This document shows, one piece after another, positions 2 to 63,804 of a DNA stretch of 64,000 nt (the first letter of the stretch is position 1; each line of letters begins with the position of its first letter). Source of the stretch: Paenibacillus lutimineralis (GTDB taxonomy: Bacteria > Bacillota > Bacilli > Paenibacillales > Paenibacillaceae). Both the position numbers and the translations under genes were made by a program. Where the stretch lies: positions 3,075,501 through 3,139,500 of the forward strand of contig NZ_CP034346.1 in assembly GCF_003991425.1 (NCBI RefSeq), written 5' to 3'. The notes beneath the pieces were generated by a model. It was not told where the DNA came from and did no database searches. It worked only from the letters and a program-made list of their open reading frames with translations.

Positions 2-271
2 GCTGAGAAGGCGGTTGATCTGCTGTATGACGGCAACGAATTTACCTTATATGAAGCGGATAAGCTCGACACGAATCATAATCATGGTGCAGGCTGTACC
101 TTCGCGGCTGCTATCGCTGCAGGATTAGCCAAAGGAATGAGCGTCAAGGATGCAGTCTCTAAGGCTAAACAATTCACAACAGCAGCTATTCAAGGCGGAT
201 TTGCTTTTAATCGCTTCGTAGGTCCTGTCTGGCATGGCGCATACAACAAGGCAGAGGCACGCATTGAATAG
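2..271 (+). CDS. Pyridoxine/hydroxymethylpyrimidine kinase, C-terminal part (PdxK/ThiD family)
   Basis: Only the last 89 codons are in the window and the start lies to the left. The reading frame carries NHNHGAGCTF, the anion-hole and catalytic-base region of the ribokinase-fold PdxK/ThiD kinases. The tail contains FVGPVWHGAY, which resembles the C-terminus of the Bacillus PdxK/ThiD-type enzyme. These cytoplasmic enzymes phosphorylate pyridoxine-type vitamers or hydroxymethylpyrimidine using ATP. I cannot choose between vitamin B6 salvage and thiamine synthesis from the C-terminus alone. The gene ends 89 bp before nhaC and belongs to the host chromosome. Confidence 0.75.
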   Translation, partial: AEKAVDLLYDGNEFTLYEADKLDTNHNHGAGCTFAAAIAAGLAKGMSVKDAVSKAKQFTTAAIQGGFAFNRFVGPVWHGAYNKAEARIE

Positions 272-360
272 CAAAGACTCCTTTTGTCCACTCTAAGATC
301 AATCCCTAAAATGATCACCCAATTCAACAGGTGTTTAATACATGATAAGGAGTTCAGCTT

Positions 361-1956: not shown

Positions 1957-3189
1957 TTAAGCAGATTCGCTTATTTGATTGTTGAATTTAAAGCTCAGAA
2001 TATCGGCAAAATGAATTCTAATCTTCTCATCAGCGTTCTTTTTCATCTTGTTCGTGACATGAGTATAGATCTTAAGTGTTGTATTCGGGTCTTCATGACC
2101 AACCCGTTGCATAACGGTCTTAAGATCTATTTCCGCTTCAGCAAGCATACTCACATGAGTGTGACGCAAGACATGAGGGGTGGCTTTCTTCTTAATACCA
2201 GTTTTCTTCAATATCCTCCTCATCCGGTCCTGAACAACACTTGTGATATATGGGTACCCATTATCACGACAGAATATAAAACCTTCGTCATGAAAAGCTG
2301 GATCGATTTTTTTGTTAAGGGACATAATTGTATTACGACGATCCATTAAAGCTTTGATCAATACCATAACAGACTCATCGATCGTAACCACTCTAATAGA
2401 TCCGATGGTTTTAGGTGGAACCACTTCATATTCCTTCATATTCTTCTTTTCACTGTACAGAGTCTTCGATATACGCACTTCATTAGTCTCGAAGTTAAAA
2501 TCGTTGACTTTCAGAGCGCAAAGTTCACCTGGGCGCATACCGCTAAAAGCTAAAAGATAGAAACGTTCTAAATCTAGTGGCAAACCATGTGTGAAGACGG
2601 CCCCGAGAAACTCTGTTAATTCAGATCTTTCCAAATATTTCTCTTCGATAGGATTACTCTCTATTTCTGCTACCGTAGGAATTCGTTCTGGAATCACCGC
2701 ATCTTTACAAGGATTATCCTCTCTTAATTTATGTTTAATTGCATATTTAAAAATCATGTTAGCCGTAACATGTAAACCTTTCATGGTGTTAAGTGCATAC
2801 TCATCGTCATCTAGCTTATTAAGCATGTCCTGATACATCTTATGGGTAATTTTATTAATCATAACATTTGAGAAAAAACGAAGCAGCAAATTGATATCGT
2901 CAAGACGCTTTTTCTTAGTGGCAGGCTTGATTTTTCGTTTTGAAAAAGTAGCATGCCAGTCATTTGCGACTTCTTCGAAAGTAAGGGGCTTTTTATTTTT
3001 GTCAGCTTCTGCTTGATTCAACAACTTCTCTAATGCAGCTTCAGCCCTTTTCAAGGCTTCCTTCTGCGTAACACCACGCCGTGATATCTGCTTTCTTTTA
3101 CCCGTAATAGGATCAGACGGTCCTTCAATGACACAAACATATTTATAGCCTTGCTTATTTTTGGCTGGTACCTTAGTGTAGCTGGCCAT
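1957..3189 (-). CDS. int: Phage integrase, tyrosine recombinase
   Basis: A 410-residue tyrosine recombinase. Residues 1-60 form an AP2-like arm-binding domain with the pattern DPITGKRKQISRRG. Residues 70-165 form the SAM-like core-binding domain. The catalytic domain shows Arg219 (SGMRPGEL), Lys near 260, HVLRH (339-343), VGHEDPNTT with His365, and the nucleophile Tyr375 (LKIYTH). It would carry out integration and excision at the att cores. It lies at the left end reading outward, and its stop is next to the arm-like repeat. The start ATG has a GGAGG-type site upstream. Confidence 0.95.
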   Translation of the reverse strand: MASYTKVPAKNKQGYKYVCVIEGPSDPITGKRKQISRRGVTQKEALKRAEAALEKLLNQAEADKNKKPLTFEEVANDWHATFSKRKIKPATKKKRLDDINLLLRFFSNVMINKITHKMYQDMLNKLDDDEYALNTMKGLHVTANMIFKYAIKHKLREDNPCKDAVIPERIPTVAEIESNPIEEKYLERSELTEFLGAVFTHGLPLDLERFYLLAFSGMRPGELCALKVNDFNFETNEVRISKTLYSEKKNMKEYEVVPPKTIGSIRVVTIDESVMVLIKALMDRRNTIMSLNKKIDPAFHDEGFIFCRDNGYPYITSVVQDRMRRILKKTGIKKKATPHVLRHTHVSMLAEAEIDLKTVMQRVGHEDPNTTLKIYTHVTNKMKKNADEKIRIHFADILSFKFNNQISESA

Positions 3190-54299: not shown

Positions 54300-54329
54300 A
54301 AAATCACATAAAAATCACGTTTTCTGCGG
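54300..54329. repeat. Right arm-type integrase site candidate
   Basis: The 30-bp partner of 1926-1955 (26 of 30 identical), with AAAATCAC twice and TGCGG at the end. It lies 102 bp inside the right core. Confidence 0.5.
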
Positions 54330-54400
54330 TAGAATATGAAAGCTGGCGATATAAAAATAGAATTATTCGAGGTGACGCACAATAAAATAACGATAAACGG

Positions 54401-54423
54401 CATTTGACGAAACTTGTCGAATG
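54401..54423. repeat. Inverted repeat inside the right end
   Basis: CATTTGAC-GAAACTT-GTCGAATG, eight-base arms with one mismatch, 9 bp before the att core. It has no copy at the left end. It could be an excisionase or integrase accessory site. Confidence 0.35.
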
Positions 54424-54431
54424 CTTATGCC

Positions 54432-54445
54432 TTATGTTATACATA
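54432..54445. other. attR core candidate
   Basis: TTATGTTATACATA, identical to 1841-1854. The yerC ATG lies 38 bp downstream, so integration happens in the yerC leader and replaces its natural upstream sequence by phage DNA. Confidence 0.7.
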
Positions 54446-54482
54446 GAGAGGGAACTTGTCATGACTCGAGGAGGGACTATTA

Positions 54483-54800
54483 ATGCTTATTGATGAATTA
54501 AAAGGTAAAGCATTGGATGAATTTGTAGAAGGCATCCTAACTTTAGAGACAAAAGAGGAGTGCTATGCTTTCTTTGATGATCTATGTACTGTTAATGAAA
54601 TAAAGACATTAGTCCAACGTTTTCAAGTTGCAAAAATGCTATATAACAATAATACGTACAGTAAGATTGAATCGGATGCAGGAGCGAGTACAGCTACCAT
54701 CTCTCGTGTGAAAAGATCTCTGTACCACGGAAATAACAGCTATGAACTGATGTTCAGCCGCATGCATAACAACCCTGAGTCCAACAAGAAGACAGATTAA
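54483..54800 (+). CDS. yerC: YerC/TrpR-superfamily DNA-binding protein
   Basis: 105 residues. CYAFFDDLCTVNEIKTLVQR and NNTYSKIESDAGASTATISR form the TrpR-like helix-turn-helix of the YerC/YecD family. The host function is little studied; it is a transcription regulator by fold. GAGGAGGG precedes the ATG. The prophage sits directly upstream and may change its promoter. Confidence 0.9.
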   Translation: MLIDELKGKALDEFVEGILTLETKEECYAFFDDLCTVNEIKTLVQRFQVAKMLYNNNTYSKIESDAGASTATISRVKRSLYHGNNSYELMFSRMHNNPESNKKTD

Positions 54801-54935
54801 GCAAGCGGAAATTAGTATGAGGAATTTCTTAATATTGCAAACGGGATAAAACGCTTCCAAAATATATAATTTTGGTATAATAGGAAAGTATAGGGTTTTA
54901 TTTCTTATAGATGAAAATTAGCGGAAAAAAGAGGA

Positions 54936-54976
54936 AAGTCGAACATGATTCTATCCGAATCGTGTTCGACTTTTTT
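54936..54976 (+). terminator. Terminator after yerC
   Basis: AAGTCGAACATGATTC-TATCC-GAATCGTGTTCGACTT followed by TTTT. A perfect 16-bp stem apart from one A/T-to-G/T position. The gap 54801-55240 otherwise contains the promoter at 55094 and no gene with a credible ribosome site except a possible 11-codon GTG leader at 55151-55186. Confidence 0.9.
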
Positions 54977-55093
54977 ATTGGTACCTTTGGTTACTTATTC
55001 TTCAAGTTCATTATATGAATAATTACGATGTTAATGATTGCGATCGAAGGTCTACAGTAGCATCGTCAGGCAGATTTTTTATCGCATTAAATA

Positions 55094-55122
55094 TTGACAA
55101 AAAATAACATATTAAGGATAAT
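55094..55122 (+). promoter_or_regulatory. Promoter of the carrier-protein operon
   Basis: TTGACA (55094-55099), a 17-bp spacer and GATAAT (55117-55122). Near-consensus SigA type. The leader before the first gene is about 110 nt and contains an AGGAGGGG followed by a short GTG ORF of 11 codons (55151-55186) that could be a leader peptide. Confidence 0.7.
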
Positions 55123-55240
55123 AATTCTAATGGTAGAAAAAGGAGGGGTAGTGAAAATTCGACTGAATTGCAGAGCATTATTGTGAAAGTAAATACTCGG
55201 TTGTATCTTGACACATTATCCCAATAAAAGGAGTGTAGAG

Positions 55241-55516
55241 ATGTACGATAAAATCGTAGACATTTTATGTGCTATTAAAGAAGACCAACCGGAACTCCGC
55301 CATTCTCTTTCCCTTAATACGGATTTAAACAATGATGTAGGCCTCGATTCTTTGCAAATGATCCAGTTTATGCTCAAAGTCGAAGATCAGTTGAACGTGG
55401 TCATTGACTATGACCAATTCGATTATGAGCATCTCCACTCGATTGATGCTTTTATCTCTTTTTTGAAGAGCTGCCAGCCGCAAGAGCAGCCGTTGTACGA
55501 AGATGTCAACCAGTAA
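55241..55516 (+). CDS. Free-standing acyl carrier protein
   Basis: 91 residues from ATG 55241 with AAAAGGAG upstream. The phosphopantetheine site is NDVGLDSLQMIQFM, with Ser near residue 38, in a typical four-helix carrier. A short acidic tail follows. As the first gene of an operon with an ATP-grasp enzyme and no fatty-acid genes, it most likely carries an amino acid or a similar acyl unit as a thioester. Overlaps the next gene by 14 bp. Confidence 0.88.
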   Translation: MYDKIVDILCAIKEDQPELRHSLSLNTDLNNDVGLDSLQMIQFMLKVEDQLNVVIDYDQFDYEHLHSIDAFISFLKSCQPQEQPLYEDVNQ

Positions 55517-56894
55517 AGCCAGTGTAACTCCTAAAACTGTTATGGGGACCTTCGATCCGGAAACCCGTTGGAGAGATCCAAATCTGGCCCGGCTGCCCGC
55601 TATGCCCGACAAAGACCGAGAGTCGATTGTCCTCTGCATGGACGAGCTGCTCTTTCCGTTCTGCGGGCCGGACGGTATGCTTTACAGCCGATGTAAAATC
55701 GATCCAGTACTGCATGAGTACCTGATCGATTTGGGGTTTTCCTTTCGGACCCGTTATCACTATGATTTGAACGATCAGAATGAGCCGTTACCCGAACCAG
55801 ATGTTTTCAAGCGTTGTATGTTCAGACTTGCGATTGATCAAGCCCTGCCTCTTCAACCGCAGGGGGCAGGATCTGGGTGTCTGTCTCCGTACGCCATTAC
55901 GGCGGATACGGAAGCATATCTGCAAGCTGCCGGAACGTTTACTTCTTTGCCAGACCTTGAGACGGTTATACGCGTTAACTCAAAGTTATACCACAATCGG
56001 CTCCTTTCCAGAATCGGTGCGAAGTGCTGGGGCACTGAGGTGAACAGTGCAGCGGAGATGGAGGCGACCGGAAGTACACTTCTGAAGCGTGTGCCTTATT
56101 TACTGAAGGACCCCTTCGGTGTTTCGGGTAAAGGAAATCTGCTTATCGACAATGAGACTATGCAGCGAAGGATAGCGTCGCACTTGTATAAACAGGAGAG
56201 TAGCGGATTACACTCTCAATTCTTGCTAGAGCCCCTGCTCCAGAAAGAGACGGATTTCAGTTCGCACTGGTTCATCCGGGAAAGCGGCGAGAAGGAACTC
56301 GTTTCTATTCAGCGGATGATTAACCACCAGCAAAATTACTGCGGGTCTATCCAAGCAGATGAAGCTTTTATCCATTTGTTGGAGAATGCAGGCTATTTTG
56401 ATGTGATGGAGAATGCGCTCCGAGTTCTGGAGAAGGACGGCTACTACGGCTTCGTATGTTTTGACTCTATGATCCTTAAGGACGGTGAAGTCGTACCTAT
56501 TGTGGAAATTAACGCCCGCAAATCTATGGGTCTGCTTAACGCTTATCTTGATAAACACTGGGGTTCATACGGGTGTAAAAGCTGGCTTACGTTCTTGTCT
56601 CTTGGTCTTCCAGAAGGCTTCACATTCGAGAGGTTGCTGCACATTCTACGTGAATCTGATCTTCTGTTGACAGTCCCAGGTAGATACGGGATCGTTCCTC
56701 TTTCGTCCAATACTGTAATGGTGAATGAGATTCTAACCCGTCGCCGTATCGCTGATGGTATACAGATCAAGCAGGTCATGCCGAAGGGAAGACTGTATGT
56801 ATCAGTGGTAGGCCGTGACGACGAACACCGTAGCGAACTTCTCGAAAGCCTGCGTCAGGTGCTCGCCGACTTATCCATGAAAGTGTACAACTAA
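55503..56894 (+). CDS. ATP-grasp ligase (PGM1/BtrJ-like)
   Basis: 463 residues. ATP-grasp motifs: a nucleotide-binding Lys and Gly-rich loop LLKDPFGVSGKGN (about 201-213), the hinge region FLLEPLL (about 240) and the Mg-binding VPIVEINARKSMG (about 328-340). ATP-grasp enzymes form acyl-phosphates and join them to amines or thiols. With a carrier protein directly upstream, a role like BtrJ (amino acid to carrier-protein thiol in butirosin synthesis) is most plausible. The N-terminal 150 residues are unassigned. Confidence 0.8.
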   Translation: MSTSKASVTPKTVMGTFDPETRWRDPNLARLPAMPDKDRESIVLCMDELLFPFCGPDGMLYSRCKIDPVLHEYLIDLGFSFRTRYHYDLNDQNEPLPEPDVFKRCMFRLAIDQALPLQPQGAGSGCLSPYAITADTEAYLQAAGTFTSLPDLETVIRVNSKLYHNRLLSRIGAKCWGTEVNSAAEMEATGSTLLKRVPYLLKDPFGVSGKGNLLIDNETMQRRIASHLYKQESSGLHSQFLLEPLLQKETDFSSHWFIRESGEKELVSIQRMINHQQNYCGSIQADEAFIHLLENAGYFDVMENALRVLEKDGYYGFVCFDSMILKDGEVVPIVEINARKSMGLLNAYLDKHWGSYGCKSWLTFLSLGLPEGFTFERLLHILRESDLLLTVPGRYGIVPLSSNTVMVNEILTRRRIADGIQIKQVMPKGRLYVSVVGRDDEHRSELLESLRQVLADLSMKVYN

Positions 56895-56915
56895 ATCTGG
56901 AACTCGGAGGCTGCT

Positions 56916-58031
56916 ATGAATTCATCCCCGGTTACCTTGCTGGCGTCGGGAAATTCGCTCGGCGCATATATTCCAGCTATCCATCTGTACACTTACCTGC
57001 AAGGCAGAAATGTCTGTACAGACATTCATGTTCTGGAAAACTTGTATCACAAAGAAGTTCGGCTCAAAATCCGTTCGACCAAAGAAGCGTTTCATGCAGA
57101 TTTCTCCGTTGCTCGAATGGGGCATAAGCTGGCCAAGCCCGTTGACTCTTCGCTGGATGAGGAAGCGGTCCTGAGACTGCTGCATGGCTGGAAACAGGCC
57201 GGTGTCTTTCGATTTGTCGTGTTTACCGGCTTTTGGATACCTATATTGGAGCGCTACAAACAAGAAGCTGATGACTCCCTGGATATCCAACTGATCCGGT
57301 TGGATGCTTGGGACACACCATCGTTTAAGGTACACAAGCAGTTATACCCCGGATACGACAATGTCTGGTTATATGAGTCTTCGAAGCTGTCTCCGAGCAG
57401 TTATATCGCTTCGGATGATGTGGAGCCTCTACCCTACGCGCAGCGTGCCGGACGCATTCTGATTCATGGCGGCGGCTGGGGCATTGGGACTTATGCAAGT
57501 ACTATATCAGAACTTCGTAGACTTGGTTACGGCCTTGATGTGATCGTCTATGATCCATCTGAGGTGGATGAGGACGATGGTATAACGCGCTACTTTGGTA
57601 CGAAGCCTTCATGGGATCCGTGGAGCCGGGATGCGCTAGGGCGACATACGTTTCCGCCCATGGTCCGATATGTCCGTATAGGCGGCGTTCTCAGAGAGTT
57701 CCCGTTCGAGGATTACTCTGCATATACAGACCTGATGCGTAATTGCGCAGCGATCATCAGCAAACCAGGTGGAGCGACTCTCAACGACTCGCTGTCACAC
57801 GGAATCCCTTTTGTCATGCTGGAGCCGTTCGGTGACCATGAGCTTCATAATTCTGCCTATTGGGAATCCTGCGGTTTTGGCATCCAGTTTGCAGAATGGA
57901 AAGCCCAGGATTTTTCGAAGCATCATCTGGAGCGGATTTACCGACGTTTGCTGGAGCAGCGATCAAAAATCAACCATTTTGGGGAGGAATACTTATGCAG
58001 CCGAAAACAACAGTTGCGTTTGACCAAGTGA
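56916..58031 (+). CDS. Glycosyltransferase (GT-B, GT1/MurG-like)
   Basis: 371 residues. Two Rossmann-like halves: ILIHGGGWGIGTYASTISEL opens the second, and IISKPGGATLNDSLSHGIPF with FGDHELHN is the nucleotide-sugar-binding region of GT1/GT28 enzymes. It would add a sugar to the pathway product in the cytoplasm. The acceptor is unknown. It overlaps the radical SAM gene by 37 bp. Confidence 0.8.
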   Translation: MNSSPVTLLASGNSLGAYIPAIHLYTYLQGRNVCTDIHVLENLYHKEVRLKIRSTKEAFHADFSVARMGHKLAKPVDSSLDEEAVLRLLHGWKQAGVFRFVVFTGFWIPILERYKQEADDSLDIQLIRLDAWDTPSFKVHKQLYPGYDNVWLYESSKLSPSSYIASDDVEPLPYAQRAGRILIHGGGWGIGTYASTISELRRLGYGLDVIVYDPSEVDEDDGITRYFGTKPSWDPWSRDALGRHTFPPMVRYVRIGGVLREFPFEDYSAYTDLMRNCAAIISKPGGATLNDSLSHGIPFVMLEPFGDHELHNSAYWESCGFGIQFAEWKAQDFSKHHLERIYRRLLEQRSKINHFGEEYLCSRKQQLRLTK

Positions 58032-59170
58032 CATTCAGCAATATGAAAAGAACTCTGATTCCATTGGCGGAAACAGGAAGGAAACGCCGGGAAGATCCGA
58101 CTTACGCGGCTCCCGTGCCTTACGAGATCGGAATCAAGCTCAATAACGGCTGCAATTTGCGCTGCAAGCACTGTTTTGAATGGAATCCAGACGGCTTTCA
58201 TCATGACTTTACCAGAGAAGTGAAAAACGATGAAATCGAGATTCCCGTCGTGGAGAAGCTGCTAGAAGAGACAAGAGAACGCAAGTCGCGCGTATTTCTA
58301 TGGGGCGGGGAGCCGCTGTTCTACTCCAAGTTCGATGAACTAGCGGAGCTGCTAGCTAGAGAAGACCGCTATACGACCATTTGTACAAACGCGATTCTCA
58401 TTGAACAGAAGCTAGACTCCATTCTGAAGATGTCGGAAAATCTGGTCATGCTGGTCAGCCTGGAAGGTTTCGAGAAGGAGAATGACGCGATTCGGGGCAA
58501 AGGCACGTTCAAGAAAGTAATCCATGCGATACAACTGTTGCTGGATTTGCAGAAGGAGGGCGTGTACAAAGGCAAAGTTTCCGTAGCTCTGACAGTGAAT
58601 GACCAGATGGTCAGTCAACTCTATAACTTTATGGAATTTTTCGAAGAGATGGGAGTTGACTCCGTATACTTTTGCTTCCCTTGGTATATTCCTTCCGATA
58701 CGGCAGAGAAAATGGACAACTACTTCGATGCTCATTTCCCGCACCTTGCCTCCCGCTTAGAGAACGGCCATAAAAATAGCTGGCACTCCTTTACGTTCCA
58801 TATTTCACCGGACAATTTCGACACGCTGGTTGAAGAACTTAGGCGAGTTAATTCCCGCGCATGGAATGTACGCATCCGCTATCAGCCGGCGCTAGAGCCT
58901 GAAGAGGTGGAAGGATTTATTCGGGGCAGCGAGAAGACAGCCATGAACCGGACGAAGTGCTTCGCGATCTCGAATCGGATGGACGTGATGCCTGATGGCA
59001 AAGTGAATCCTTGTAAATTCTTCCCCGAATTTAGTGTTGGCAATTTGTACGAAGAGAGCGTGGCGGATATATTTCACGGCGAAGATCTCCGGAAACAGCG
59101 AGAGACTTTGGCCTGCGGTCTGATGCCGATTTGTTCGAAGTGCGTATTGCTATATAATAATGGAGTTTAA
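57995..59170 (+). CDS. Radical SAM/SPASM enzyme
   Basis: 391 residues from ATG 57995, 6 bp after GGGGAGGAA; the longer frame is inside the upstream gene. The radical SAM cluster is CNLRCKHC (about 53-60) and LWGGEPL follows. The C-terminal SPASM part has cysteines at RTKCFAIS, NPCKFFPE, ACGLMPICSKC, which can bind auxiliary clusters. SPASM enzymes modify peptides or amino acids, but no precursor peptide is visible, so the substrate may be the carrier-bound amino acid. Confidence 0.9.
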   Translation: MQPKTTVAFDQVTFSNMKRTLIPLAETGRKRREDPTYAAPVPYEIGIKLNNGCNLRCKHCFEWNPDGFHHDFTREVKNDEIEIPVVEKLLEETRERKSRVFLWGGEPLFYSKFDELAELLAREDRYTTICTNAILIEQKLDSILKMSENLVMLVSLEGFEKENDAIRGKGTFKKVIHAIQLLLDLQKEGVYKGKVSVALTVNDQMVSQLYNFMEFFEEMGVDSVYFCFPWYIPSDTAEKMDNYFDAHFPHLASRLENGHKNSWHSFTFHISPDNFDTLVEELRRVNSRAWNVRIRYQPALEPEEVEGFIRGSEKTAMNRTKCFAISNRMDVMPDGKVNPCKFFPEFSVGNLYEESVADIFHGEDLRKQRETLACGLMPICSKCVLLYNNGV

Positions 59171-59225
59171 GCGTTTAAACTTTAACCGTCCTAGCAACAC
59201 AAGCGATCATTCAGGAGGAGCGGAG

Positions 59226-60221
59226 ATGGACTTTAAGATGGACTATATCCGTGTGAGGGAGCTCCACAAATCATTCGTGTATTATCGAAAAGAAGCAGGG
59301 CTTAGGAACTCACTAAAAAATTTATTTGCTCGAAAGTCTCTGGTGAAGGAAGCGGTTAAATCCGTTTCCTTCGACATTGGTCCCGGCGAGTGTGTTGGAT
59401 TTCTCGGACCAAACGGAGCAGGGAAGACCACGACGCTCAAAATGTTATCTGGCATTTTGTATCCGACAAGCGGGGAGGCTAATGTCCTTGGCTATGTGCC
59501 ATGGGAGCGCAAAAATGAGTTCAAACGGCTTTTCTCCATTGTGATGGGCCAGAAAAACCAGCTTTGGTGGGATCTTCCCGCTATTGAGTCCATTTATTTG
59601 AACAAATGTATTTATGATGTAGCAGATGATATTTACCGACGGAGTCTTGACGAACTATCGGAAATGCTTGATGTTCAGGAACTTCTGAACGTACAAGTAC
59701 GCCGGCTTTCCCTGGGAGAACGGATGAAAATGGAATTGATCGCGGCACTAATCCACCGGCCTCGGTTGCTTTATCTTGACGAGCCGACGATCGGCCTTGA
59801 TTTTCCCTCCCAAAAGAAGGTCAGGGAGTTTCTGAAATACTATAATGAGCAATTCGGCGCAACGATCTTGCTGACGAGCCATTACATGAAAGATGTAGAG
59901 GATCTGTGCAAACGGACGATCATCATTAACGAAGGAAGTCTTCTCTATGACGGGGATCTTCACAAAATCAACGATCTTTTTGGCGAGCGGAAAATAATAA
60001 GGCTGCGGTTCTCCGAACCCGTTGCCACGCTGCAGTTGGCCAAATTCGGGAAAGTCGTCATGGAAGACGAATACAACGCCGTTCTAGAGCTGCCTAAGTA
60101 CCTATTGAAGGAAGTATCGCGCGCAGTGCTCGATTCGTTTCCAACTGTTGACTGGACGATTGAAGATGTGCCGATTGAGGAGAGCATTTCAATGCTCTAC
60201 CACAAGGAATCTGTCGGATGA
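59226..60221 (+). CDS. ABC transporter ATP-binding protein
   Basis: 331 residues from ATG 59226. Walker A GPNGAGKTTT (about 62-71), Q-loop region GQKNQLWWDLP, signature LSLGERMKMEL and Walker B LLYLDEPTIGLD. A long C-terminal extension after residue 240 is typical of the subfamily partnered with PF06182-type permeases (viologen-exporter-like). Together with the next two genes it forms an exporter. Confidence 0.93.
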   Translation: MDFKMDYIRVRELHKSFVYYRKEAGLRNSLKNLFARKSLVKEAVKSVSFDIGPGECVGFLGPNGAGKTTTLKMLSGILYPTSGEANVLGYVPWERKNEFKRLFSIVMGQKNQLWWDLPAIESIYLNKCIYDVADDIYRRSLDELSEMLDVQELLNVQVRRLSLGERMKMELIAALIHRPRLLYLDEPTIGLDFPSQKKVREFLKYYNEQFGATILLTSHYMKDVEDLCKRTIIINEGSLLYDGDLHKINDLFGERKIIRLRFSEPVATLQLAKFGKVVMEDEYNAVLELPKYLLKEVSRAVLDSFPTVDWTIEDVPIEESISMLYHKESVG

Positions 60222-61027
60222 ACAGGCGTAAATTATACACGGCTATATTTTCGATGGGCGTCCAGCATTCCATGGAATACCGATTTCATTTCTTCCTCAG
60301 TCTTATCGGGGCTGCATTTCCAATTCTTGTCCAGTATTTTATCTGGACTGCGGTGTATCGCAATTCCGGTCAGTCGGCGCTGTTCTCGTATTCATACGGA
60401 CAAATTATTCTGTATACCATCTTGGCGGGATTGGTGTCCAAGCTGATCTCTACCCAGTTTGAACAACAGATTGCAGATGATATCAAAAATGGTGGTCTTA
60501 ATAAGTATTTAATTAAACCGGTCAGCTACTTCGGGTATCGGCTGGCGTCCTTTTTCGGTCAGAAAGTGATCTATTACGGGATTACAGCTTTGCTGCTCGT
60601 CGGAATAATCTGGATCGCATCTACCAGGGGGGTGCTTGAAGTCCAGGCGATACGTCTGGTTGTATTTACCTTCACACTCTGGGGAGCGCTTCTGCTTAAC
60701 TTTCTTATCGTCTATTGCATCTGTGCCAGTGCTTTTTATCTACATGAAATCTCCTATTTTTTCGTCATTACAGGTCTGCTTGTCAATATTTTGAGCGGAG
60801 GTATGTTTCCGTTAGAGATATTTGGGGAGTCGGTTGTGAAGGTGCTTGAGTATACGCCGTTTCCATATACGATCTATTTCCCAGTCAATGTCCTTAGTGG
60901 CAAGACGGAAGCGGTGGGGATGTATCAGGGTCTACTCATTCAATGTGGATGGATTTTGCTGTTCTTCGGACTCTCCCGTCTGACGTGGCGGGTTTCCATG
61001 AAGAAATATTCGGCGGTCGGGGGGTAG
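60218..61027 (+). CDS. ABC exporter permease 1
   Basis: 269 residues with six hydrophobic segments and the family opening MGVQHSMEYRFHFFLSLIGA. It overlaps the ATPase gene by 4 bp and matches ABC-2/PF06182 permeases. Probably half of a heterodimeric membrane channel. Confidence 0.88.
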   Translation: MNRRKLYTAIFSMGVQHSMEYRFHFFLSLIGAAFPILVQYFIWTAVYRNSGQSALFSYSYGQIILYTILAGLVSKLISTQFEQQIADDIKNGGLNKYLIKPVSYFGYRLASFFGQKVIYYGITALLLVGIIWIASTRGVLEVQAIRLVVFTFTLWGALLLNFLIVYCICASAFYLHEISYFFVITGLLVNILSGGMFPLEIFGESVVKVLEYTPFPYTIYFPVNVLSGKTEAVGMYQGLLIQCGWILLFFGLSRLTWRVSMKKYSAVGG

Positions 61028-61039
61028 CGGACATTCCAT

Positions 61040-61843
61040 ATGTTTAAAACCATGAGAAAATACGCGCGCCTGTACGGCATGTTTATCAAAAATTGCCTCA
61101 TCGCCCAGATGGAGTTTCGTGGCAATTTTATGATGAGCCTGATTGTCGAATCCGTCTATTTGATCGCCAAGTTGTTGTATGTGCTGGTCGTGTTTCGCAC
61201 GGATCTTCACGTAGAGGGTATACCGCCAGAAGGACTGCTCCTATTTATAGGCATGCATACTGTGGTGACCGGAATCTATGTAGGTCTATTTTTTACAAAT
61301 TTCATGAAAATTCCGGAGTATATCAAAGACGGATCGCTTGATTTAATGCTGACAAAGCCGGTTTCCCTTCAATTTATGGCTTCCTTGCGTTACGTCGATC
61401 TGGCGTTACCGATCCCCGATATTCTGGTCGGGTTGGTCATGATCGGAATCGGCTGGCATGCGATGGCTATTCCGCTTATGTTCCCGCAACTCGCAGGGTT
61501 TGCGCTACTGCTACTAGTCTCGATTGTCATCACATACTGCTTGATGATCATCCCGGCGCTGCTTTCCTTCTGGTTCGTCCAGACGGGTTCTGTGTCAGAG
61601 ATTGCACATTCTGTCTGGGACGCCAACAATTTTCCTATGTATATTTATCCGGCATGGGTCCGTCGGATCGGCACCTTCATCATTCCTCTGTTTCTTATTA
61701 CAAATTTTGGACCGATGTTCCTGCTCGGACAGCTCAGTTGGCTTCACGTAGGACTGTCACTGGCTGGTTCGCTTCTGCTCTTCGCAGCCGTACGGCTCTT
61801 CTGGAAGCGGGCTGTGAGGGAATACAGCAGCGCAAGCAGTTAG
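61040..61843 (+). CDS. ABC exporter permease 2
   Basis: 267 residues, six hydrophobic segments, with LTKPVSLQFMASLRYVDLAL. Same family as permease 1 and probably its partner. Spacing of 12 bp from the upstream stop. It would export the operon product or confer self-resistance. Confidence 0.88.
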   Translation: MFKTMRKYARLYGMFIKNCLIAQMEFRGNFMMSLIVESVYLIAKLLYVLVVFRTDLHVEGIPPEGLLLFIGMHTVVTGIYVGLFFTNFMKIPEYIKDGSLDLMLTKPVSLQFMASLRYVDLALPIPDILVGLVMIGIGWHAMAIPLMFPQLAGFALLLLVSIVITYCLMIIPALLSFWFVQTGSVSEIAHSVWDANNFPMYIYPAWVRRIGTFIIPLFLITNFGPMFLLGQLSWLHVGLSLAGSLLLFAAVRLFWKRAVREYSSASS

Positions 61844-61880
61844 AAGCTTCCTAACCACTCGCTCGAAGGGGGAGAATCAG

Positions 61881-62933
61881 ATGAACGCAGTTCAGCTTCC
61901 GGTTTTGAATCCGCCACTTAAAGGATTTTTGCGGTGGGCCTACACGCTTTCGATTACTAGCGCCCACGAAGAGACCATACCGTGGTATTACAGTAATTTT
62001 ATCCAATTATTCTGTAACAAAAAATTCCTGGAACACGGCAGACAGTACTATATCGATTTTTTTCGGGGCAAGCCCAACGAATTGAACTTTAACAATCCAT
62101 TTCTTCTCACATGCTCCGTCAATTATACGATTCTGGAGAGTTTGGCATTAGAGTCCTGGCCGAAATTCTTCGCAGATCAAATCCGCAACGGCTATTATTG
62201 TGTCGTTTTTTTGGATGAAGCGAAGCTCTCTCCAGCGGCATCTTATCAGAAAGAACCGTTTCCGCATCATCTGTTTTTATATGGTTTTGATTGGGAAGCA
62301 AGTGTCTTCGATGCTTCGATGTTCGACAATACGGGAGTATATCGCAATTTGCAGATCCCGTTCCAGGAGTTGGTGGATGCTATCAAGTCTATGAGACAGC
62401 TCCTGAAAAACAACCTTACGTCTGATCATCATACGTATTTTTACAAATACGAACCCCATTCTCCTTATCCTTTCGATAAAATGGCTGCGATCGATCAGTT
62501 GCGTGATTACCTTAACGGAGAGACTCATCTAAACCGGATCAATTATAATCCCGATGAGGAAGAGGCTTTCGGAATCAAGGTATACGACTATTTGCAAATG
62601 TACTACGATGCTGTAGAGAACAACGACACCAGGTTAGTTGACCGTAATGATGTGAGGCATCTTCACGTCCTCTGGGAGCATAAAAGAATGATGAGTGAGC
62701 GTATTGAATTTCTGGTGGATGAGGGGATAATCCCTTACGATGGAGAGCTAGTGGAAGGCTACAAGGAGATGAGCAATAGAATGTTAAAACTGAGGGATCA
62801 GTACATTCGTCATGAGATCCGCGCAGATAAGGAAATGTATAAACGGCTGAGGCTTCGGATTAATGAACTCCGGGAGGAAGAGCCTGTATTATTGCAAAAG
62901 CTGATTACACTGCTCGAAGGTAGGCATCTATGA
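61881..62933 (+). CDS. Papain-fold/BtrH-like protein
   Basis: 350 residues. Residues 70-150 have a cysteine-peptidase-like arrangement: NPFLLTCSVNYTILESL (Cys78), GYYCVVFLDEAKL and FPHHLFLYGFD (His130), then SVFDASMFD (Asp144). BtrH and related enzymes in this fold move an acyl group from a carrier protein to an amine, without a nuclease or signal peptide. The remaining 200 residues are helical. Last gene of the operon, GGGGGAG upstream. Catalytic assignment is from pattern, not structure. Confidence 0.65.
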   Translation: MNAVQLPVLNPPLKGFLRWAYTLSITSAHEETIPWYYSNFIQLFCNKKFLEHGRQYYIDFFRGKPNELNFNNPFLLTCSVNYTILESLALESWPKFFADQIRNGYYCVVFLDEAKLSPAASYQKEPFPHHLFLYGFDWEASVFDASMFDNTGVYRNLQIPFQELVDAIKSMRQLLKNNLTSDHHTYFYKYEPHSPYPFDKMAAIDQLRDYLNGETHLNRINYNPDEEEAFGIKVYDYLQMYYDAVENNDTRLVDRNDVRHLHVLWEHKRMMSERIEFLVDEGIIPYDGELVEGYKEMSNRMLKLRDQYIRHEIRADKEMYKRLRLRINELREEEPVLLQKLITLLEGRHL

Positions 62934-62947
62934 TCTGAATACCACTA

Positions 62948-62990
62948 AAATCGCTTTGCTCTTCAACCGAGGGGCAAGGCGATTTTTTCG
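62948..62990 (+). terminator. Operon terminator
   Basis: AAATCGCTTTGC and GCAAGGCGATTT, one G-T pair, then TTTT. It closes the carrier-protein operon 15 bp after the last stop. The following gap to 63240 holds no supported gene. Confidence 0.88.
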
Positions 62991-63240
62991 CTAAAGCCTG
63001 CTGTATGAGGCACAAATTAAACACGAAGTTTACAGAATAGATATTATGTTAACTTAAAGGAGTAATTGGTAACTCTTTAGACTTTTCTATAAACAGAGCC
63101 ATCTTTCTTTCAGTTAACAGGTGGTCATACCCTGAGGAAACTAATGAAAGATAAAGGTATCTGAAGGATTTACCTGCGGTTGGTGGAATATTATTACTAT
63201 GCTAAGGAAGGCTTTATATACAGAAGAGGAGCTGGTAAAA

Positions 63241-63804
63241 TTGACACCTATTATTCTAGGAATTGCGGGCGGCTCGGGCAGTGGTAAATCAACTTACTGC
63301 GAAATTTTAGTAAAAGAACTTAAAGATTATCAAGTAGCTGTTATCTCAACAGATGATTTCTATAAAAATGATTTGCCAAAGATGATATCGCCTGTATCCA
63401 ATGTGGAATACGACGATTTTAACCATCCAGATGCATTGGACTATAACAAGTTAATGGAATACATAAACAACTTACTGAGTACTAAAAATCATCCTGAAGT
63501 AGTAATCTTAGAAGGCATTTTCACACTTTACTTTGAAGAGATAAGAGAAATGTTAGATTTAAAGATCTTTGTTGATCTTGATTCAGATGAACGTATGTAT
63601 CGAAGGATAAGCAGAAATGTGAAAACTTGGGGCATGGATTTTGAGGAAGTTGCAACATATTACCTAGATGCTGCAAAACATAGAGAAATAGAATTTGTAC
63701 TGCGTACTAAAAATTTTGCTGATTTAGTCATTAATGGCAACCAACTAGAGGGCATATCGAAAAATATTATCTGTAGTTGGATAAGTAGTATGATAAGGAA
63801 ATGA
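63241..63804 (+). CDS. Uridine kinase-like P-loop kinase
   Basis: 187 residues from TTG 63241 with AGAGGAG about 9 bp upstream (ATG 63199 would add 14 residues). Walker A GIAGGSGSGKST, STDDFYKND and DFNHPDALDYNKL, EGIF and RRISRNVKTWG match the uridine/phosphoribulokinase family. Shorter than standard uridine kinase and more AT-rich than the upstream operon. The substrate is uncertain. Confidence 0.75.
   Translation: MTPIILGIAGGSGSGKSTYCEILVKELKDYQVAVISTDDFYKNDLPKMISPVSNVEYDDFNHPDALDYNKLMEYINNLLSTKNHPEVVILEGIFTLYFEEIREMLDLKIFVDLDSDERMYRRISRNVKTWGMDFEEVATYYLDAAKHREIEFVLRTKNFADLVINGNQLEGISKNIICSWISSMIRK

Follow-up and report, generated by a model that had tools for sequence, protein, structure and literature searches.

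How can an amide be formed on a carrier protein when no nonribosomal peptide synthetase (NRPS) modules are at hand, and when the protein expected to form it appears to lack the catalytic cysteine of its fold? This question is raised by an operon of eight genes in Paenibacillus lutimineralis, which lies in a stretch of 64,000 nucleotides (NZ_CP034346.1, 3,075,501-3,139,500, forward strand) that is called the window here and within which the operon coordinates are counted. In order, the genes encode a carrier protein, an ATP-grasp ligase, a glycosyltransferase, a radical S-adenosylmethionine (SAM) enzyme, the ATPase of an ATP-binding cassette (ABC) transporter, two permeases, and a papain-fold protein. 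The last of these shares its fold with condensing enzymes that act independently of NRPSs. We consider the chances about even that the product of the operon is a small glycosylated amide (an aminoacyl compound or a short pseudopeptide), made by an NRPS-independent carrier-protein route and then exported.

Structure of the operon

A sequence-only reading of this DNA had described eight genes between a promoter and a terminator, and this layout was borne out.

55094..55122, + strand: sigma-A-type promoter, TTGACA-17-GATAAT, 11 of 12 consensus matches
55241..55516, + strand: free carrier protein, 91 aa, with Ser37 in a DSL motif (33 bits with PP-binding; cut-off 20.8)
55503..56894, + strand: ATP-grasp ligase, 463 aa (fold match)
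56916..58031, + strand: GT-B-like glycosyltransferase, 371 aa (sub-threshold EryCIII-like C-terminal match, E 6.4e-4)
57995..59170, + strand: radical SAM enzyme with a short SPASM/twitch-like C-terminus, 391 aa (Radical_SAM 74.9 bits, SPASM 47.5 bits)
59226..60221, + strand: ABC transporter ATPase, DrrA-like, 331 aa (ABC_tran 83.3 bits)
60218..61027, + strand: ABC-2 type permease 1, 269 aa (PF06182, 71 bits, cut-off 22)
61040..61843, + strand: ABC-2 type permease 2, 267 aa (PF06182, 129.1 bits)
61881..62933, + strand: papain-fold condensing-enzyme-like protein without the papain-type cysteine, 350 aa (fold match to CcbD, AziU2-U3 chain and CtaG)
62947..62986, + strand: intrinsic terminator hairpin, 18 pairs, 4-base loop, 3' T run, -25.7 kcal/mol

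All eight genes run in the same direction (55241-62933, +), with intergenic gaps of -14, 21, -37, 55, -4, 12 and 37 bases. When the window was compared with 24 other loci, 22 of the 25 sequences had identical promoter hexamers with the same spacing 5' of the carrier gene, the exceptions being L062, L065 and L066, and promoter-like sites across the whole region were at chance level (12 observed, 14.0 expected). Most compared loci also share the consensus GATAATAATTGTAAC, located 3' of the -10 box that precedes the carrier gene, and these bases are possibly an operator. The terminator hairpin, which is absent from the list of a pattern scan, has a z of -6.37 against 200 shuffles. A Rfam search of 54300-63400 for a riboswitch or structured leader gave a single chance-level match (JA03, E 0.58). 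In pairwise comparison with Paenibacillus sp. GM2 (L033), dN/dS was 0.04-0.17 for each gene, so all eight appear to be maintained by purifying selection.

Fold and conserved residues of the papain-fold protein

The three structures nearest to the papain-fold protein over the whole chain are CcbD and CtaG, both condensing enzymes of NRPS-independent pathways, and a chain of the AziU2-U3 complex; residues 9..347 align to CcbD 10..357 and residues 9..345 to CtaG 4..309. The proposed kinship of the last protein to such enzymes is thus supported by its fold. For the catalytic residues, we counted 40 close orthologs (window included) and 52 sequences of the wider family. Using the predicted helix start (residue 18), the aligned ranges of CcbD and CtaG, and four distant members that bear a cysteine in this column, the site of the papain-type cysteine can be placed by inference at Arg18; a global profile alignment (hhalign -glob) aligned the N-termini too poorly to fix this column. 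Arginine stands there in 40 of 40 orthologs, and a cysteine occurs at the column in 4 of 52 members of the wider family. His129 is kept in all 40 orthologs and in 51/52 of the wider family, Asp149 is aspartate in 40/40 and 34/52, and Asp112 and Glu113 are kept in 51/52 and 48/52 of the wider family, respectively. Compared with the Cys-His-acid triad of CcbD and CtaG, the orthologs therefore keep the histidine and the acid (His129 and Asp149) but not the cysteine.

The sequence-only reading had instead assigned a catalytic triad of Cys78, His130 and Asp144 and proposed transfer through an acyl-enzyme on Cys78, which residue conservation does not support. Cys78 is a cysteine in 39 of 40 orthologs (serine in L066, a locus that carries all ten genes of the longer cluster described below) and in 18/52 of the wider family, and it falls within a predicted strand (75-79), not at a helix start. 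His130 is kept in 40/40 orthologs and in 30/52 of the wider family, and aspartate is found at position 144 in 18/40 and 8/52. Homologues lacking the catalytic cysteine had been named beforehand as evidence against that mechanism; this is what was found for the papain-type cysteine, while a non-classical role of Cys78 is weighed below.

Several related genomes hold distant relatives of the papain-fold protein in numbers of up to 12 per genome (e.g. G042, G060, G097), and some of these adjoin annotated NRPS genes (L001) or genes for an FkbH-domain protein and a carrier protein (L071). The relatives form a large expanded family.

Other proteins of the operon

The DSL motif of the carrier protein is kept in 35 of 35 sequences, and its best NCBIfam relative is AsbD, with a score under the AsbD cut-off. 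For the ATP-grasp protein, a Pfam sequence search gave no match, ATP-grasp families included, so its assignment rests on the fold, the nearest structures being peptide ligases. Among 20 sequences, K202, the G206-N212 loop (except S208), E335, N337 and R339 are invariant. The glycosyltransferase also matches UDPGT (sub-threshold) and diglucosyl diacylglycerol synthase models (below cut-off), and its PDB match is 9wde, a processive diacylglycerol beta-glucosyltransferase (E 0.0046); its identity is a weak call, nearest to the diacylglycerol glucosyltransferases. Of the two enzyme classes assigned earlier from the letters, GT-B and ATP-grasp, both are weak by sequence and the latter is carried by its fold.

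In the radical SAM enzyme, the cysteines of the CxxxCxxC motif (C53, C57, C60) and five C-terminal cysteines (C322, C340, C374, C380, C383) are kept in 26 of 26 sequences. A full SPASM motif has seven cysteines; the five found here would be enough for one auxiliary cluster, and we take the short C-terminus to resemble that of twitch enzymes such as BtrN. All NCBIfam matches of this protein are below cut-off, with peptide maturases among other maturases, and its nearest PDB sequence is SkfB. The ABC ATPase scored 194 bits with the DrrA model, below the model cut-off. Family searches recognised no flippase, polymerase or lipid-carrier transferase among the eight operon proteins.

Distribution of the gene set

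A single scan of named bacterial genomes gave 56 loci, in 39 of which the papain-fold gene reaches about 49 percent identity or higher; gene content was scored within the fetched stretch of each locus. The same eight genes as in the window operon are present in 13 of the 39 loci. Another 11 are complete clusters of ten genes, in which the following pair is placed between permease 2 and the papain-fold gene.

L037 7338-10041, and 10 further loci: zinc alcohol dehydrogenase and family-3 glycosidase pair

L044 has this pair without the transporter. In ten loci the ATP-grasp, glycosyltransferase, ABC ATPase and papain-fold genes are present (carrier gene scored in 8 of the 10) and those for the radical SAM enzyme and the permeases are missing, and four loci (L034, L052, L053, L054) are without most of the gene set. 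L034 and L052 retain the dehydrogenase/glycosidase pair beside the papain-fold gene, and L034 also has remnants of the remaining set. The other 17 of the 56 loci comprise 13 with only distant papain-fold relatives and four with none over threshold. The pair is absent from the window operon, and in the own genome no close copy of the dehydrogenase was found (best 30 percent identity, partial); the best family-3 glycosidase match there was 43 percent.

The ATP-grasp alignment was also searched in 296 genomes of the order, with figures counted among the matches listed. An ortholog (at least 700 bits) occurs in 30 of 296 genomes, own genome included, which is a patchy distribution among relatives, and paralogs (322-430 bits) occur at 67 further places in 57 more genomes. 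Across the phylum, 4 of 398 genomes match at E <= 1e-20: three belong to the window's own family (own genome included), and the fourth, G640, to another family of the phylum. We extracted 40 regions, 39 around paralogs at a minimum of 320 bits and L157 at 73 bits, and took their gene labels from typed seed proteins. Genes for a carrier protein and a radical SAM enzyme occur in all 39 regions of at least 320 bits, and a glycosyltransferase gene occurs in 36; in L159, one of the three misses, such a gene was scored in another comparison. The G640 region (L178), which ends at the contig end, carries the same core. Among the 40 regions, an ABC ATPase is found in 26, a Gfo/Idh/MocA oxidoreductase-like gene in 21, a pyridoxal phosphate (PLP) decarboxylase-like gene in 10, a nucleotidyltransferase in 7 and a PIG-L deacetylase-like gene in 6, and L158 has an epimerase/dehydratase-family gene. 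A papain-fold gene of the window family is present in 13 regions and a BtrH_N-like gene in 12, with both only in L147 and neither in 16. All 12 BtrH_N-like genes have the HC motif; 10 of the 13 papain-fold proteins have no cysteine in the first-helix segment, and in L146, L157 and L180 a cysteine lies in or just before it. By neighbourhood comparison, the carrier and ATP-grasp set proposed earlier, without NRPS modules and with sugar, radical and export genes, is thus a conserved unit in many Paenibacillus genomes.

Comparison with known systems

In lincosamide biosynthesis, CcbD/LmbD act with the carrier domain of CcbZ/LmbN, and CcbD uses a Cys-His-Glu triad and an acyl-enzyme, whereas the operon's protein has Arg18 at the inferred site; no thiooctose or alkylproline genes were recognised in the operon. 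The closthioamide system (CtaD/CtaE/CtaG) differs in its AANH-type thioamide synthetase CtaC, a family matched by none of the eight operon proteins. PDB variants of CtaG are named C11A, H128A and D144N, and the equivalent of its cysteine is missing here.

Butirosin biosynthesis (BtrI, BtrJ, BtrH) and the operon share a free carrier protein, an ATP-grasp ligase and a papain-fold acyltransferase-like protein, and BtrN shares with the operon's radical SAM enzyme a short auxiliary-cluster domain. However, neither a decarboxylase nor a luciferase-like monooxygenase was matched among the eight operon proteins, and the operon does not belong to the butirosin type. Filing the papain-fold protein under BtrH, as the earlier reading had done, proved too narrow, since the window protein has no match to Pfam BtrH_N (PF14399, cut-off 29.7 bits) at E <= 1. 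Of 22 papain-fold family members, 2 match this profile, with a best E of 0.057; some distant relatives are matched both by it and by the profile of the papain-fold family. In addition, the BtrH_N proteins of relatives have an invariant H24-C25, whereas orthologs of the operon protein have R18 at the inferred site. With the cut-off unmet and the cysteine missing, membership in BtrH was rejected. Elsewhere, the own genome encodes a genuine BtrH_N protein, HC motif included (G000:C1:6411269-6411655, L099; see also L098-L109), and a small open reading frame (ORF) 5' of the BtrH_N gene in several fetched relatives resembles, we presume, a PadR-type regulator. In the related region L157 (G132:C1, 6406-11154), genes for a PLP decarboxylase, a luciferase-like monooxygenase, an ATP-grasp protein and a window-family papain-fold protein are consecutive and resemble the butirosin side-chain set.

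AsbD of petrobactin biosynthesis is the nearest NCBIfam model to the carrier protein, and petrobactin asbE is given as a DUF6005 gene (PMC11317620). The papain-fold protein shows profile similarity to DUF6005. Eight AsbE-type sequences have invariant N-terminal cysteines (C6, C10, C12), and no siderophore synthetase was matched among the eight operon proteins. The own genome gave no match to DUF6005, and 2 of 22 papain-fold family members matched weakly (best E 0.0086); with the Pfam cut-off (25 bits) not reached, DUF6005/AsbE membership was also rejected. Such weak Pfam matches of the 22 members carry little weight alone because unrelated families rank equally (e.g. PspB, 2/22). Finally, the nearest folds to the ATP-grasp enzyme are the peptide ligases 8ynd/8ynq (Streptomyces), 3wvq/3wvr, 7r8p and BesA, at 12-17 percent identity; compared with these, the operon's gene is distinguished by its 14-base overlap with a carrier protein gene.

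Prophage upstream of the operon

Directly upstream of the operon is a contractile-tail-type prophage (1841-54445) with an integrase gene at 1957-3189 (-). On one side of the prophage is the gene of an NhaC-like antiporter (361-1734), and on the other that of a YerC-like regulator (54483-54800). These labels (tail, integrase, NhaC-like, YerC-like) are our assumptions from reading the ORFs. The prophage is flanked by the 14-bp repeat TTATGTTATACATA at 1841 and 54432, and in L033 the antiporter and regulator genes are adjacent, forming an empty site.

Discussion

The chemistry and the product proposed here are built on the gene content, conservation, promoter, terminator and predicted folds described above, and on the absence of a cysteine at the inferred site. 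A host phosphopantetheinyl transferase would convert the carrier protein to its holo form, and the ATP-grasp enzyme would activate a carboxylate as acyl phosphate and load the carrier or extend a carrier-bound unit. The papain-fold protein would then bring an acceptor with an amine, probably an amino sugar or an amino acid, to the charged carrier and form the amide. In this reaction the amine, with Asp112 next to it and His129/Asp149 serving as base, would attack the thioester directly, and no classical cysteine acyl-enzyme would be formed. An amino sugar is suggested by the parallel with CcbD and by sugar genes that related clusters contain (PIG-L, nucleotidyltransferase, epimerase/dehydratase), rather than by the operon alone. 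Tailoring of the sugar or the acyl part may fall to the glycosyltransferase and to the radical SAM enzyme with its short SPASM part, and the DrrA-like ATPase with its two ABC-2 permeases would export the product. A broader proposal, which we offer only tentatively, is that the operon belongs to a large, as yet undescribed family of thiotemplated pathways in Paenibacillales that work without NRPSs (with a core of carrier protein, ATP-grasp, glycosyltransferase and radical SAM enzyme, often with ABC export), and that the cysteine-less papain fold of this branch forms amides through direct, His-assisted aminolysis of the thioester on the carrier, a mechanism like that of an NRPS condensation domain on a protease fold.

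Other explanations concern the role of the papain-fold protein itself. It is rather unlikely, though it deserves weight, that this protein is a non-catalytic or differently catalytic partner, either a carrier-binding scaffold or an enzyme with AziU3-like chemistry without an acyl-enzyme, and that the ATP-grasp enzyme itself makes the amide. AziU3 acts on a carrier-bound substrate and needs no acyl-enzyme, and the AziU2-U3 chain is among the three nearest folds; the lack of a papain-type cysteine (R18 in 40/40 orthologs, cysteine in 4/52 of the family) and the closeness of the ATP-grasp fold to peptide ligases also fit such a role. However, the conservation of H129 (51/52), D112 (51/52) and E113 (48/52) goes beyond the needs of a scaffold, and the two kinds of papain-fold gene seldom occur together (1 of 40 regions). 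Less probable still, covalent transfer would be right in essence with its triad misassigned, and Cys78 would be a non-classical nucleophile. Its presence in 39 of 40 close orthologs, with serine in the remaining one, is what such a nucleophile would show, but it is found in only 18/52 of the wider family, lies in a predicted strand (75-79) rather than at a helix start, and is accompanied by a variable Asp144 (18/40).

The nature of the product can also be read differently. The operon might decorate and export a cell-surface glycan or a lipid-linked sugar, onto which a carrier-bound acyl or aminoacyl group is put, instead of a diffusible metabolite; the diglucosyl diacylglycerol synthases among the glycosyltransferase matches and the related clusters with nucleotidyltransferase (7/40), PIG-L deacetylase-like (6/40) or epimerase/dehydratase (L158) genes point in this direction. 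We regard this as unlikely, as no flippase, polymerase or lipid-carrier transferase was recognised among the eight proteins, the transporter is DrrA-like with ABC2_membrane_6 permeases, and the cluster has a patchy occurrence in related genomes (at no less than 700 bits, 30 of 296, own genome included). A pathway to a ribosomally synthesised and post-translationally modified peptide, in which the radical SAM/SPASM enzyme acts on a ribosomal precursor, would agree with SkfB as the nearest PDB sequence and with the peptide maturases among the below-cut-off NCBIfam matches. This is very improbable, since the first gene encodes a carrier protein, the ATP-grasp and glycosyltransferase genes stay in 10 loci without the radical SAM gene, and ORF reading of the operon, whose largest gap is 55 bases, showed no small precursor-like gene between its members (genome-wide precursors were not searched).

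Conclusion

To our knowledge, the adenylation and condensation domains that the usual modular searches look for are missing from carrier-protein pathways without NRPS or polyketide synthase modules. The individual parts of the operon are of known kinds, and the combinations that we searched in the accessible text of open PMC papers (subscription journals lie outside this scope) returned no description of such clusters, neither of the gene combination nor of the cysteine-less papain fold. If the family is real, the ortholog-bearing (30 of 296) and 57 paralog-bearing genomes of the order would give access to glycosylated metabolites that are still unexplored. If the proposed mechanism is true, a protease fold which forms amides without cysteine would be a new catalytic solution, in direct mechanistic contrast to CcbD and CtaG.

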